Below, one piece after another: positions 23,507-35,613 of a stretch of 36,161 nucleotides of DNA. This DNA is from a virus. The stretch spans positions 1-36,161 of IMG/VR virus record IMGVR_UViG_3300009009_000029. One strand, given 5' to 3'. Under the pieces are notes generated by a model that saw only the letters and a program-made list of their open reading frames with translations, was not told the DNA's origin and searched no databases. Each line of letters starts with the position of its first letter. The first letter of the stretch is position 1. The translations under genes were made by a program, and so were the position numbers.

Positions 23507-23914
23507 ATGCCTACAGGGACACTATTCACGCCGACAAAAGTCGAAGAATTTAACTCGGCTGTTTTGAAATATAATGGTTACGGCGTCACTGGGGCGCTTA
23601 CTCCACTTGCGACGACCGACCTTGACTGCTCGTTTGCTGACGATATGCTAGTGACCGCCATCGAATTAATCGTTGATGCGCCGCAAGCCGGTGACTACAT
23701 GGTGCTGTCTGTAGTGCATCCAAGCGGGACTGTGCTTAACGTGTTCGTTGAGCGTTGGTATATGGGCATCTCAAGCTTTCGGGCATTCTACCAGATTGCC
23801 TACCCGTCAAAACTAATCGCTGGTTTAATCCTGCGGGCTTCCTATGTCAGCGTTAACGCCGTCGCCCCTACGTTTGTGGCAGGGAATTACGGACTTCACA
23901 AGGTGATGTGGTGA
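23507..23914 (+). CDS. hypothetical structural protein (135 aa)
   Basis: ATG 23507 with GGAGG at 23495 is the clear start; an earlier TTG at 23489 contains that site and is unlikely. The protein is beta-rich with aromatic residues (DYMVLSVVHPSGTVLNVFVE; RWYMGISSFRAFYQIAYPSK) and no signal peptide. It is the last gene of the small structural run, before lysis. Exact role unknown. It is coupled to the next gene by GTGA. Confidence 0.6.
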   Translation: MPTGTLFTPTKVEEFNSAVLKYNGYGVTGALTPLATTDLDCSFADDMLVTAIELIVDAPQAGDYMVLSVVHPSGTVLNVFVERWYMGISSFRAFYQIAYPSKLIAGLILRASYVSVNAVAPTFVAGNYGLHKVMW

Positions 23915-24441
23915 GAGTTATTTTCGCAAAGGGTAGGTCGTGGACTGCAGACGTTATCGCGTCGGTATGCGATACAGATGTTTCTCATGTCGCTCTCATG
24001 ACTGATGTTGCAAAAAACCTCAGCCTTGTGTTTCACTCGACAAGCGCGGGCGTTGAGATATGCAGCTACTCCAAGTTTAAAAGGCTATACATTGTCAGAA
24101 GGTCGTATGAAATACCTTGTAATTCGGCTTACGGAAGTAACTATCACCTTAGGAAATTATTCGAAAAATACGAAGGTTGCAAATATGACTATTTTGCCTT
24201 TGCGTATCTTGGCCTTTACCTATGCCTTAAAAAGCTGGGTATAAAACTCCCGGCTGAAAACCGCTGGCAAAACCGAAATCATTTTATTTGCACCGAATTT
24301 GCGTCAATGGCGATCATGGGTCATATTGATAGTATGTACACATTAAAATCGCTCGAGGAGCACATTAAGGAGCACTTTCATGACCTCCGTATGTCGTTCG
24401 ACGACCCTCCTGTATCCGCCATTTTTAGCCGAAATGAATAA
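23911..24441 (+). CDS. permuted NlpC/P60-like (YiiX-type) papain-fold enzyme (176 aa)
   Basis: The likely start is GTG 23911, overlapping the upstream TGA; GTG 23908 is also possible. The motif SHVALM supplies a His (about residue 26) and FICTEFAS supplies the Cys (about 127). His before Cys is the order of the circularly permuted NlpC/P60 group (YiiX/YaeF, LRAT-like). Members act as amide or ester hydrolases on peptidoglycan or lipids. Between them is an aromatic stretch (KYDYFAFAYLGLYLCL) that could touch membrane. Being next to the endolysin gene, it may help lysis or be a virion enzyme; which is unknown. It overlaps the endolysin gene by 62 bases. Confidence 0.7.
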   Translation: MRVIFAKGRSWTADVIASVCDTDVSHVALMTDVAKNLSLVFHSTSAGVEICSYSKFKRLYIVRRSYEIPCNSAYGSNYHLRKLFEKYEGCKYDYFAFAYLGLYLCLKKLGIKLPAENRWQNRNHFICTEFASMAIMGHIDSMYTLKSLEEHIKEHFHDLRMSFDDPPVSAIFSRNE

Positions 24442-25292: not shown

Positions 25293-25910
25293 TTACTCTT
25301 TGAGAGCCTCCTCGATTTTGAGGAGAATCATAGGGACTTCCGGACCGTCGACCAACTCTGACAATTCTAAGTGCGTGCGGCCAGTGGCTTGCGCTAAGTT
25401 AATTCCGCGCTTTTCTGCTATGTCGATGTATTTGATGATTATGTCACGAGCAGATTTTTTTTCAACAACTTCCCTAGTCTCGACGTTTATTTGCTCCGCT
25501 TCGAGCATTGCTGCGGCGTAAATCTCAGGTTTGGAGTTTGTCAGGGTTGGATAATCCTGCTCGTCCTCGTAGCGAAGCGCTTTCATCAACTCCGCTTCGG
25601 CGTCGACTGGGACGGTTTTAAACATGCGGCGTAAAATGGTTTTCTTGGCCATCTCGCCCCATGTATTGAGCCAGGCAGGACTGTTACTCGACGCGGCTCG
25701 ATTGCGAATTTCCTCGATTTGCGAGCGCTCCATGACTTCAAATTTGTCGCCGCCATTCACTAGCTTTAGGATGCCGTAGACGTGGGTGATGTCCGCGTCC
25801 TTTTTGGATGTCGCGCCCATGGGATTATGCATCGACTGCCATTGCCCATTTTGCATGTAATACTCAAATTTCTCGCCAGGGTAGACTGCGTGCGCTTCCG
25901 CAGTTTTCAA
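25293..25910 (-). CDS. recT: RecT-like annealase, C-terminal part (after frameshift)
   Basis: This continues the RecT protein begun at 26260, one frame away. TAEAHAVYPGEKFEYYMQNG matches the RecT segment after the conserved 'IGYKGLI-LARR' motif. DADITHVYGILKLVNGGDKF, WLNTWGEMAKKTILRRMFK and LRYEDEQDY are further RecT hallmarks. A one-base insertion near 25912 would fuse the two parts with perfect spacing. As it stands, a TTG at 25910 overlaps the upstream stop (TTGA), so coupled translation of a separate fragment is possible. Its role is single-strand DNA annealing in phage recombination. Confidence 0.8.
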   Translation of the reverse strand: MKTAEAHAVYPGEKFEYYMQNGQWQSMHNPMGATSKKDADITHVYGILKLVNGGDKFEVMERSQIEEIRNRAASSNSPAWLNTWGEMAKKTILRRMFKTVPVDAEAELMKALRYEDEQDYPTLTNSKPEIYAAAMLEAEQINVETREVVEKKSARDIIIKYIDIAEKRGINLAQATGRTHLELSELVDGPEVPMILLKIEEALKE

Positions 25911-32196: not shown

Positions 32197-33756
32197 TTGA
32201 CCGAACATTTAGACCCCAAGATTCTCCGTTTTGAGAAGAAAAAGCAAGCGGAAATTGAGGGAAAAGCAAAAAGTCGGCAAGGCTACAATGCCTTTAGGAA
32301 CTACATTGAATTGCCAAAGGAGGACGGACAAAAGCAAGCATTCATGCCGAGGAGCATGGACGAGCTAGCAGGTGAGTTTATGGGAAACTTCCCAGACATG
32401 GTCCGTTACAACCACAAGATTTGTAATATCGTCAATGATAACAATCGCCCGGGATGGCGCGAAATGCGCTTTTTAGAGGATTCGAAGGACCTCGAAACGG
32501 CGATAAATGACATGGGCTGGCTGCGGGACTTTAAAAGTAAAGACATGCTGAGCGTTAAGTGGGAATCATTTTTTAGGAGCCTTCGAAACCGCATCACGCC
32601 CGTCAGGACCGTCAGCGACTATCCGACATGGCCTATGGGACCGGGGCAAATTGCGCTAAGCCCGCCCATCGCGCCTGCACAAACAGGTGCCTTGGACGCC
32701 TTTATCGACTTTTTCAACCCGCTGACGCCCCACGACCGTCTACTCATGAAGGCCTTGGTCGCAACGGTAGCTTGGAGCAATGGTCAGGGTAAGCGACCAT
32801 TGTTTGTGATTGCCGGAGCTCATGATGCCGATAAGACGATACAGATCGGCAAGTCGACCTTCGCTGAGATGATTCAGGAGCTCTTTGTAAGCCCCGGCGA
32901 CTTAGACGTCCGAGACGACGCAGCGAGATTCACAATCAACTTGATGGCTAATGCTCATAAGCGAGTGATCAGGCTAGACAATGTCAGGAGTATATTCAAT
33001 AGCGCGATCATTGAGCGCTTCGTTACCAGCAAATACTTGCAAGGGCATGTGTTCGGTGTCGGCAACAGGATGATCGAAAATCACGTGACGTTTATTCTCA
33101 CAGCCAACGAACCCAACCTGACAATCGATTTGGCAAGCCGCTCTGTGGTGATCAGGCTTGCGCGTCCTTTGCCGGGTAACTCGTGGCTCGAGGAAAACGT
33201 CAAGGCTTGGATTGAGGCCAATCGTGAGGCCGTTCTGGCTGATTGTGCTTATGTCCTGACCTTACCGCGAGGGGCGAATGATCGAGAGTGTGCGACCCGC
33301 TTTCCCGAGTGGGAGCGGACCATATTGCATAAGCTGGGTGATGATATCGGCGCCGGTATTAAGCTTGATCAAGAGCGACTACAAGATAAGAGCGAAGAAC
33401 ATGCGGCTTTTAGGGATTTTATCTATTCTAAGATAATAAGCTATAAAATTGCTATAAAAAACGAGACCGATTTTATACTTTCGCCTGAAACTTTTAACAT
33501 CTTTATTTCAAGCGAAATCGTTTGCAGTTGGTACTTCGAATTCTCGGGTCTGCGCTACGCTCATAGCCGTGGAAGCTATGGAAAGGTCATAAAAAAACAG
33601 TGTGTTGAATCGGGTTTGTTTCCGCATCCTGGAAAATTGCGGGTAGGCTCGGTCAATCCGAGGGGGTTTTGGTTTTCGAAGCCTATTCGCAAGCGAGCAA
33701 CCTATGGTATTCTTCATAAACGGAATGAGGACCCCTACGCTATCTTTGTTAAGTAG
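32197..33756 (+). CDS. SF3/D5-like replicative helicase (519 aa)
   Basis: TTG start with AAAGGAG at 32181. The N-terminal 150 residues form the D5_N-type region (MDELAGEFMGNFPDMVRYNH). The AAA+ core has LMKALVATVAWSNGQGKRPL, then a Walker A (QIGKSTFAEMI), a Walker B-like strand (HKRVIRLDNVRS), sensor 1 (HVTFILTANEPNL) and an arginine-rich RSVVIRLARPLPG. The C-terminal part, about 130 aa, is a likely winged-helix (FRDFIYSKIISYK ... RYAHSRGSYGKVIKKQ). This is the phage/viral primase-associated helicase plan. It ends in TAG just upstream of the iteron region. Confidence 0.8.
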   Translation: MTEHLDPKILRFEKKKQAEIEGKAKSRQGYNAFRNYIELPKEDGQKQAFMPRSMDELAGEFMGNFPDMVRYNHKICNIVNDNNRPGWREMRFLEDSKDLETAINDMGWLRDFKSKDMLSVKWESFFRSLRNRITPVRTVSDYPTWPMGPGQIALSPPIAPAQTGALDAFIDFFNPLTPHDRLLMKALVATVAWSNGQGKRPLFVIAGAHDADKTIQIGKSTFAEMIQELFVSPGDLDVRDDAARFTINLMANAHKRVIRLDNVRSIFNSAIIERFVTSKYLQGHVFGVGNRMIENHVTFILTANEPNLTIDLASRSVVIRLARPLPGNSWLEENVKAWIEANREAVLADCAYVLTLPRGANDRECATRFPEWERTILHKLGDDIGAGIKLDQERLQDKSEEHAAFRDFIYSKIISYKIAIKNETDFILSPETFNIFISSEIVCSWYFEFSGLRYAHSRGSYGKVIKKQCVESGLFPHPGKLRVGSVNPRGFWFSKPIRKRATYGILHKRNEDPYAIFVK

Positions 33757-33779
33757 TTGATTTAATAGACAAAAGAAAA

Positions 33780-34064
33780 TGTACCATTATGTACCATTAG
33801 GTGTACCATTATGTACCATTAGCTTTTGTCAATAAAATCATCGCTGTACCATTTGTACCATTAAAAACGAACCCCCCAGATGTTCAACTTTTGCGTTGCC
33901 TAAAATTGCCCTTTCTGTTTTTTTTACTCTCTATTTCTAATGGTACTAATGGTACTAATGGTACAAAATAATATAAATATATAATATATAAGACAAAACC
34001 GTTTGTACCATTACACTTCGTTTCGTTTAGTTCTAATGGTACAAATGCCGATTCTAATGGTACA
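33780..34064. repeat. iterons TGTACCATTA, twelve copies in both orientations
   Basis: Plus orientation: 33780, 33790, 33802, 33812, 33845 (last base T), 33854 and 34004. Minus orientation (TAATGGTACA; two end in T): 33938, 33947, 33956, 34034 and 34055. Spacings of 9-12 bases within pairs or triples, and 21-22 between others, place sites on about one helix face. Each copy centres on GTAC. They would bind a phage replication initiator or repressor. Confidence 0.9.
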
Positions 34065-34121
34065 AACGGGTGATCGGGCGAAATCATTTTGGTAGCTCAA
34101 CTGACCATAACCGTGTATATT

Positions 34122-34140
34122 TCCTCCAAAACATGGAGGA
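34122..34140 (+). promoter_or_regulatory. hairpin sequestering the ribosome-binding site of the post-origin gene
   Basis: TCCTCC (34122-34127) pairs with GGAGGA (34135-34140), loop AAAACAT. The right arm is the Shine-Dalgarno sequence of the ATG at 34144. This would lower translation unless the structure is opened. It is the second such arrangement in this genome after the scaffold leader. Confidence 0.55.
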
Positions 34141-34143
34141 TTT

Positions 34144-34428
34144 ATGGAAGCCAAGTATGTGCGCGGGCACAACCTGAAAAACGAGGTCATTCTCAACATA
34201 CCTGCAAATTTGTACGGCTATGAATGGCGAGTGACTGCAGGCCAAGGTATGGTCAACATACAACGCCGATCCTTCCTAAATGGTGGAAAATACAGGATAA
34301 TGATGAGAATGCCCGCAGCTGAATGGCTTGAATTTGTCAGGGTTGAGCTGGACGGAAAACCGCCTATGGAGGTCGCAAAAGCGCTCCATAAGCATACCGG
34401 TGGAAGGAAATCTAAGTGGACCAACTGA
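34144..34428 (+). CDS. small protein after the origin, possible iteron-binding regulator (94 aa)
   Basis: ATG 34144 with a perfect GGAGGA site. Composition: an N-terminal beta part (NEVILNIPANLYGYEWRVTA) and a C-terminal helical part (RMPAAEWLEFVRVELDG; PMEVAKALHKHTGGRKSKW) ending in basic residues. It adjoins the iterons and its ribosome-binding site is hairpinned, so an origin-binding or copy-control role is tempting but unproven. It resembles the minus-strand protein at 28637 in plan. Confidence 0.6.
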   Translation: MEAKYVRGHNLKNEVILNIPANLYGYEWRVTAGQGMVNIQRRSFLNGGKYRIMMRMPAAEWLEFVRVELDGKPPMEVAKALHKHTGGRKSKWTN

Positions 34429-34670
34429 TCGCGGTGTCGACGACACTGTCCGGGCTGGCACTTGGGGCTACCCTGACAGTGCTTTTTGCGATAAAGCTTT
34501 TTATCAAAGAATACGGGCTATTAATCGAGAAATGCGATGCGGTGATCAAGGAAGCGCATCAGAATTTGAAGCAAGCGAACGAGGTCAATCAGGCTTTGGC
34601 GGCTAAGATAGAAAGTTTGGAGGATGGACTAAAAACGCTTGACTTTTGGCGGACACAAGGGAAGAAATAG
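34416..34670 (+). CDS. membrane-anchored coiled-coil protein (84 aa)
   Basis: GTG start with GGAAGGAAA upstream, overlapping the previous gene by 13 bases. One N-terminal transmembrane helix (VSTTLSGLALGATLTVLFAI) is followed by a cytoplasmic or periplasmic coiled coil (IKEAHQNLKQANEVNQALAA). This is the layout of inner spanins and of some Rz-like or exclusion proteins. The lipoprotein at 29438 is far away, so a spanin pair is only a possibility. Stop TAG is followed directly by TAA. Confidence 0.55.
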   Translation: MDQLIAVSTTLSGLALGATLTVLFAIKLFIKEYGLLIEKCDAVIKEAHQNLKQANEVNQALAAKIESLEDGLKTLDFWRTQGKK

Positions 34671-34705: not shown

Positions 34706-35059
34706 ATGAATAACTTCCGCGACGGCTACTTAGAAATTGGCGAGCCGTTAGGCATGATTAATCAGGACGTTAGCCTCGTGGCGGACGATCAAGTTTTGAT
34801 TCTCAACCCTAAGACTTCCCTGATTCGGATCACGAGCGACAACACCACGGCTACAAATAGGACCTTCACTTTTCCGGGCGGCTATCGCATGGGTCAGCAA
34901 CTCATGCTCACCGTCGTATCGGGCGGCGCCACGACATGTCAGCTTGTGGATGGCGGAAACGTGGCTTTAAGCGCTGCTTGGACCCCGCAGCTTAACGACA
35001 CCCTATCGCTCGTCTGGAACGGCTCTGTGTGGCTTGAGCAGTGCCGCAGCGATAACTAA
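34706..35059 (+). CDS. small structural, fibre-related protein (117 aa)
   Basis: ATG 34706 with GGAG at 34696; an in-frame TTG at 34646 is less likely. All-beta: DVSLVADDQVLILNPKTSLI, TATNRTFTFPGGYRMGQQLM, and the terminal LSLVWNGSVWLEQCRSDN. This ending ('W-x-G-x-x-W-x-E-x-x-R-S-x-N') is common in small phage fibre-associated or decoration proteins. It resembles the N-terminal domain of the fibre at 5107 (TLPAGAAKQIFFILDGKG). The role is inferred. TAATG couples it to the small-terminase candidate. Confidence 0.6.
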   Translation: MNNFRDGYLEIGEPLGMINQDVSLVADDQVLILNPKTSLIRITSDNTTATNRTFTFPGGYRMGQQLMLTVVSGGATTCQLVDGGNVALSAAWTPQLNDTLSLVWNGSVWLEQCRSDN

Positions 35060-35613
35060 TGTCGAACTACAAAAAGCCGGGTCGCCCCCCCAAGAAGAAA
35101 AAGAAAAACGACGATGATGGGCATCACCCGGCTTTTGAGGTTGGGGAGATATTCAAAGATCCGCCCACAGCGGACGAGGTGTCGAAGATCTTTAGCGGGA
35201 CTGTGTCCAACGCGGGCTTCAAGGCGGCTCAGGAGGCGCATCAACCCGGCCAACAGATAGTGACGAAGGTTGTTGCTGGGTTTGCAGTTGGGTCGCAGAA
35301 TACCGCGACGATCAAAAAGCGCTTAAGCAAGTTTTGGCGTATGCCTCGCAATCAGCTGCAGGCGCTTGTGAATGACCCAGACACGACGATGGGCGACATA
35401 GCTTTGGCGGCGATTTTAGTTAAAGCTGCGAGCGAAGGTTGTCCTATCAAACTCAATTTCATTTTGGATAGGATGATTGGTAAAGTTAAAGTCGCGCATG
35501 AAAAGATCGAGGTGGACGAGCTATTGCAGAAAATACCGACTGAGAAGTTAGTGGCGTTGCTTGAGGACTTGCCAACAACGATTGATGCCAAGGCTGTGAA
35601 AGTGGAGGTTTAA
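35059..35613 (+). CDS. putative terminase small subunit (184 aa)
   Basis: A basic N-terminus (KKPGRPPKKKKKN) is followed by RLSKFWRMPRNQLQALVNDP, then DIALAAILVKAASEGCPIKL, NFILDRMIGKVKVAHEKIEV and a final helix. 'Lets a helix end in LDRxxGK-V-x-x-x-x-E' is typical of small terminase-like proteins. It lies two genes upstream of the large terminase on the closed circle, the usual order. It would recognise phage DNA and load TerL. It starts in a TAATG overlap. Confidence 0.65.
   Translation: MSNYKKPGRPPKKKKKNDDDGHHPAFEVGEIFKDPPTADEVSKIFSGTVSNAGFKAAQEAHQPGQQIVTKVVAGFAVGSQNTATIKKRLSKFWRMPRNQLQALVNDPDTTMGDIALAAILVKAASEGCPIKLNFILDRMIGKVKVAHEKIEVDELLQKIPTEKLVALLEDLPTTIDAKAVKVEV

Follow-up and report, generated by a model that had tools for sequence, protein, structure and literature searches.

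Genes and repeats at positions 33757-34143

The window analyzed here is a whole virus record of 36,161 bases, which lacks end repeats and thus may be incomplete. Positions 33757-34143, with a G+C content of 34%, form the exact gap between the stop codon of a helicase gene (33756) and the next start codon (34144). The helicase gene (32197-33756, plus strand) encodes a D5/SaPI-like superfamily-3 helicase of 519 amino acids with a Walker A motif, IGKST. Directly upstream of it lies a gene for a primase-like protein (31351-32142, plus strand; phrog_1883, E 1.4e-12; phrog_2135, E 8.7e-11), a relative of which is annotated in MW202458 as "primase c terminal 1 (pricT-1)," so that the first-pass annotation was correct in placing primase and helicase genes beside the repeats. 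Also upstream is a Holliday-junction-resolvase-like gene (30787-31365, minus strand; phrog_1770, E 3.4e-18), and the gene on the other side of the gap (34144-34428, plus strand) encodes a small protein, here called the 34144-type protein, with no Pfam or PHROG match. Genes for terminase, portal, internal virion, and tail fibre proteins were found elsewhere in the record, along with one RecT-like and one Gam-like gene. We recognized no DNA polymerase among the larger open reading frames scanned, several of which had no family match; the earlier description of a genome without its own polymerase therefore holds for the recognizable larger reading frames of a possibly incomplete record. As minor observations, the RecT-like gene is split into overlapping minus-strand reading frames (25293-25910 and 25907-26260) that match different parts of phrog_148, which may reflect a frameshift, a sequencing error, or a programmed shift, and positions 23908-24441 (plus strand) weakly match the enoyl-CoA hydratase-like phrog_1128 (E 6e-5).

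Within the gap, GTACCATT occurs 12 times between 33781 and 34063, and the predicted seven direct copies (starts at 33781, 33791, 33803, 33813, 33846, 33855, and 34005) and five inverted copies (starts at 33939, 33948, 33957, 34035, and 34056) were all located. Eleven of the 12 are exact copies of GTACCATTA, and the inexact one at 33846 reads GTACCATTT. No further copy of GTACCATT was found in the rest of the 36,161-base record, and TGTACCATT was counted 10 times against 0.24 expected and a maximum of 2 after shuffling. The first site begins 24 bp past the helicase stop codon, and successive starts are 10, 12, 10, 33, 9, 84, 9, 9, 48, 30, and 21 bp apart. The tight spacings are 9-12 bp, so the earlier phrase, near one helical turn, fits them only roughly.

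The sites fall into blocks. Block 1 consists of four direct TGTACCATTA copies spaced 10-12 bp apart (33780-33821, plus strand); block 2, 65 bp past the first site, of two direct copies at 9 bp (TGTACCATT and TGTACCATTA; 33845-33863, plus strand); and block 3 of three inverted copies of TAATGGTAC in a perfect 9-bp tandem (33938-33964, minus strand). Block 3 is followed by a core of 27 nucleotides containing only A and T (33965-33991), the longest A/T run in the window, which bears out the A/T-only stretch noted previously and is a candidate unwinding element. Nine sites lie to the left of this core and three to its right, the latter being a lone direct copy (iteron 10; 34005-34013, plus strand) and two inverted copies (iterons 11 and 12; 34034-34042 and 34055-34063, together 34034-34063 on the minus strand).

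Arrays of related phages and their repeat words

Related contigs were brought in via the portal protein (G001 to G005), via an iteron-pattern scan (G006, among the matches listed), and via the protein encoded at 34646 (L150, which is near-identical to L151, and L157), yielding a set of nine distinct phages including the window. A helicase homologue with 26-64% identity was present in all six of G001 to G006, and an iteron array lay directly 3' of the helicase gene in all nine phages, that is, in every relative for which the DNA past the gene was read. When the helicase alone was used as a query against viral contigs, phages, and plasmids, or the primase alone against viral contigs, no relatives were returned. 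A full seven-member helicase alignment was too diverse for a profile scan, and a four-member alignment used in its place led only to viral contigs already known as relatives; in genome contigs, neither this alignment nor the 34646 family gave any relatives. The other contigs among the listed iteron-pattern matches had no array of this kind, and the two that were read (L017 and L060) look like coding NGT-type repeats. Silvanigrella aquatica CP017838 was also set aside, as it has structural genes in common (portal, 34%) and no helicase homologue was found in it.

The nine phages use eight different repeat words. GTACCATTA is shared by the window and G006, and the others are GTAACATTA in G001, GTTCCAGTT in G002, TGAGCCTCA in G003, GTAGGATTA in G004, GCTACCGAT in G005, GTAACAGTA in L150, and GTTTCGGAT in L157. 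Among 256 loci examined, a two-orientation GTACCATT cluster was detected only in the window and G006.

In most relatives, the sites follow one order: four direct, two direct, three inverted, an A/T-rich stretch, one direct, and two inverted. Measured from the first site, the sites lie at 0, 10, 22, 32, 65, 74, 157, 166, 175, 224, 253, and 274 in the window and 0, 9, 20, 32, 64, 73, 156, 165, 174, 245, 274, and 283 in G005, a phage with a different word and a helicase only about 26% identical to that of the window. Using site lists curated by hand with up to two mismatches allowed, and counting as agreement a site that has the strand of a window site and lies no more than 2 bp from it, we observed 44 positional agreements with the window over the eight relatives, whereas 5,000 gap permutations averaged 13.6 and reached at most 26. 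Agreement was strongest for G002 (9/11), G005 (9/11), and G004 (7/11); taken singly, it was modest for L150, L157, and G001 and not significant for G003 and G006. Most of the order is kept at shifted distances in G001, L150, and L157, and the order is kept with a degenerate block 2 in G006. G003 is the clearest exception to the layout, and G004 departs from it in the right half.

Individual elements of the layout recurred as well. Four direct sites spaced 9-12 bp apart open the array in all nine phages (the first being degenerate in G001 and L150), and most relatives have a site, degenerate in some, 63-66 bp past the first one. An inverted tandem in the phage's own word was observed in G001, G002, G005, G006, and L150 and, with two units, in L157, and most relatives have a 40-mer rich in A/T close to block 3. 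A single direct site 49 bp past the last inverted-tandem site is common to the window, G001, G002, G006, and L150, in which it is degenerate. These comparisons indicate that the site arrangement is nearly constant across the nine phages and that eight words fill it. The spacer between blocks 1 and 2 of the window (CAATAAAATCATCGCTGT / CAATAAAATCATNGCTGT; 33830-33847, plus strand) appeared by eye to be nearly identical in L157 (about 1983-2000) and partly so in G001, with the iteron words differing, and is possibly a second cis element that may bind another factor. We also noted extra genes for proteins of 60-74 amino acids between the array and the 34144 homologue, one in G002 (L142) and three in G006 (L146).

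The helicase and recognition of the repeats

The window helicase matched DUF5906 weakly, and six of the nine family members match this domain. A model of the helicase (pLDDT 70.9) had its best fold matches to two SaPI replication helicases, PriRep1 with double-stranded DNA (7pds_F, Z 13.4) and SaPI5 (7ola_C, Z 12.2), followed by poxvirus D5/E5 (D5, Z 11-12) and, lower, papillomavirus E1; no P4 alpha structure was among the fold matches listed. No sequence-level match to the solved SaPI proteins was detected. The C-terminal domain (33388-33753, plus strand; residues 398-519), modelled alone with a pLDDT of 88, came out as a winged-helix-like domain, with a predicted recognition helix around residues 458-471. 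Its fold matches were weak (Z up to 4.2), and many were winged-helix DNA binders, with C-terminal portions of PriRep1 (7pds_D 346-474, Z 4.0) and SaPIbov1 Rep (8tch 452-550, Z 3.5) among them; a Foldseek search with this domain gave no match with an E value below 0.7. SaPI Rep reads iterons located just downstream of its own gene via its C-terminal domain (PMC7581432), and by analogy the C-terminal domain of the window helicase is a putative iteron reader.

Comparison of G001 with G002 provided a natural exchange at this locus. Most of their aligned DNA is about 91-94% identical, and nucleotide matching is absent from approximately codon 21 of the helicase gene to about 10 bp past the last G001 iteron. 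Upstream, resolvase and primase are 97% and 91% identical, compared with 40% for the helicase, and downstream identities are 91% (74/81) for the 34144-type, 87% for the 34416-type, 96% for the 34646-type, and 95% for the 35059-type proteins. The repeat words, GTAACATTA in G001 and GTTCCAGTT in G002, are strongly different. In G001, the exchanged segment contains no sizeable gene other than that of the helicase; in G002, it contains in addition a gene for a protein of 74 amino acids. G001 and G002 differ in other mosaic segments too, so the helicase-array exchange is not the sole one. As judged from these alignments, the difference between G001 and G002 at this locus is an exchange of the helicase body plus the array, and the helicase gene and its repeats seem to be exchanged together, as a single cassette.

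The first-pass annotation had proposed the 34144-type protein as the binder of the repeats. Our results speak against this proposal, since the G001 and G002 homologues are so alike despite their unlike words that the protein would not be a word-specific binder, and in G003 and G005, the two most distant relatives examined, we detected no homologue in the neighbourhood of the array. Because the helicase changes together with the array while neighbouring proteins stay alike, the helicase is the best candidate for the word-specific binder on the evidence of this comparison. A protein encoded outside the exchanged segment is unlikely to be the reader of the word unless a few differences suffice. 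Helicase similarity is no simple predictor of the word, and C-terminal domain identities do not track it: the G002 helicase is nearer to that of the window than is the G006 helicase (64% versus 57% overall and 58% versus 49% in the C-terminal domain), although it is G006 that has the window's word and G002 that has another. A few residues may decide word specificity. G006 and L150, whose words differ, are 82% identical in the ATPase core and 50% identical in the C-terminal domain, a contrast that fits reading of the word by the C-terminal domain.

A probable replication origin of satellite type

Considering the position and architecture of the array, both evident across the compared genomes together with the helicase-array exchange, we conclude that the phage very probably replicates from an origin at 33757-34143, with the helicase (32197-33756) probably its initiator. 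Comparison thus strongly supports the earlier reading as an iteron origin, with like arrays in nine phages at the position occupied by SaPI/PICI origins. The proposed GC-skew check lent it no support, as cumulative skew has no clear turning point at the array. By analogy with the SaPI and P4 systems, helicase subunits would bind the twelve 9-bp sites, probably via the C-terminal winged-helix-like domain, and helicase rings would assemble on the two site clusters flanking the A/T core, melt this core, and then unwind outwards. The primase-like protein would start synthesis, and the polymerase would presumably be that of the host.

Other functions for the array appear improbable to us. One is that of an operator through which the helicase or another protein controls the downstream genes or its own operon, with replication starting elsewhere. 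The array does lie between two gene groups of the same strand, so that its right edge may hold a promoter for the downstream group, and iteron arrays often autoregulate as well. However, twelve sites packed into about 280 bp around an A/T-only core far exceed what an operator needs, the word changes with the helicase gene, which is upstream, and the array keeps its layout although the gene directly downstream varies, additional small genes being present in G002 and G006. In addition, we detected no convincing sigma-70 promoter (1 found, 1.7 expected). A function of the sites in partition (as a centromere-like array) or in the initiation of packaging, instead of as an origin, is in our view less credible still and very improbable. 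Clustered short repeats mark such sites too, and a possible small-terminase-like gene, its role guessed from position only, lies 1 kb away (35059-35613). The protein of the latter type is nonetheless among those conserved between G001 and G002 despite their differing words, and no partition gene was recognized among the window proteins scanned.

It is also doubtful that the array is an origin whose word is read, not by the helicase, but by the 34144-type protein, some other protein of the phage, or a factor from the host, which then recruits the helicase. Such an order of events is known from lambda, in which O binds the iterons and P and DnaB are then recruited, and the lack of a parallel between helicase similarity and word similarity is compatible with it. 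Against it stand the 91-97% identities of the 34144 homologues, primase, resolvase, and 35059-type proteins in two phages with different words, and the helicase being the only sizeable gene in the exchanged G001 segment. A host factor, moreover, would need matching changes in each host.

With the helicase as probable initiator, the best reading of the module, drawn from gene order, fold, and array layout, is an initiator-helicase and origin like those of SaPIs (PICIs) and P4, carried by a phage with virion genes of its own. The description of the origin as new-looking is thus partly right, its kind being already known from satellites. PICI origins lie 3' of rep and contain two iteron sets flanking an A/T-rich region, an organization stated to be present in no other known bacterial replicon (PMC6092414). 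The placement of the window module in a tailed-phage lineage that encodes its own virion runs against that statement. Shared with SaPIs/PICIs are the succession of a primase gene, a helicase-initiator gene, and an origin directly 3', two groups of short iterons around an A/T-rich region, a SaPI/D5-like helicase fold, and a shared arrangement in which each island has its own iteron sequence (PMC6092414, PMC7581432). In contrast, the window is a 36-kb phage and not a satellite; its own terminase, portal, internal virion protein, and tail fibre genes rule out a whole PICI. Its site order of 4+/2+/3-/AT/1+/2- and the lack of a sequence match to the solved SaPI proteins also set it apart.

P4 alpha is a helicase-initiator of the same broad superfamily as the window helicase. 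The 8-bp type I repeats of P4 are likewise closely spaced and present in either orientation, the alpha gene is followed immediately on its 3' side by crr, and the ori order of --- + -- is that of the right half of the window array, which may be chance. P4 differs in its word (TGTTCACC), in having its sites split between ori and crr, about 4.7 kb apart, compared with a single array here, and in that alpha joins primase and helicase in one protein, whereas the window has separate primase-like and helicase genes. The lambda origin also has iterons adjoining an A/T-rich tract, and initiator and iterons form a matched pair, as in the type specificity known in lambdoid phages. The iterons bound by lambda O are located within the O gene (PMC7466680). 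The window array, in contrast, is intergenic, and its presumed initiator is a helicase, which lambda O is not.

Eight naturally occurring words on an almost uniform scaffold, and one cassette exchange that happened in nature, make the recognition code of a helicase-initiator and the tolerance of origin geometry directly testable in this family. Only tentatively, we suggest that the module might be a swappable replication type, in which a fixed scaffold of about 12 positions accepts wholly new words, selection keeps co-infecting phages and satellites off each other's origins, and words diversify rapidly. Finally, in a siphovirus record with a primase relative (L009, MW202458.1), GGTAACAGCA-type repeats in both orientations surround an A/T-rich stretch at 40000-40360, on the 5' side of an annotated dsDNA helicase gene, and are perhaps a second, distant example of such an array.
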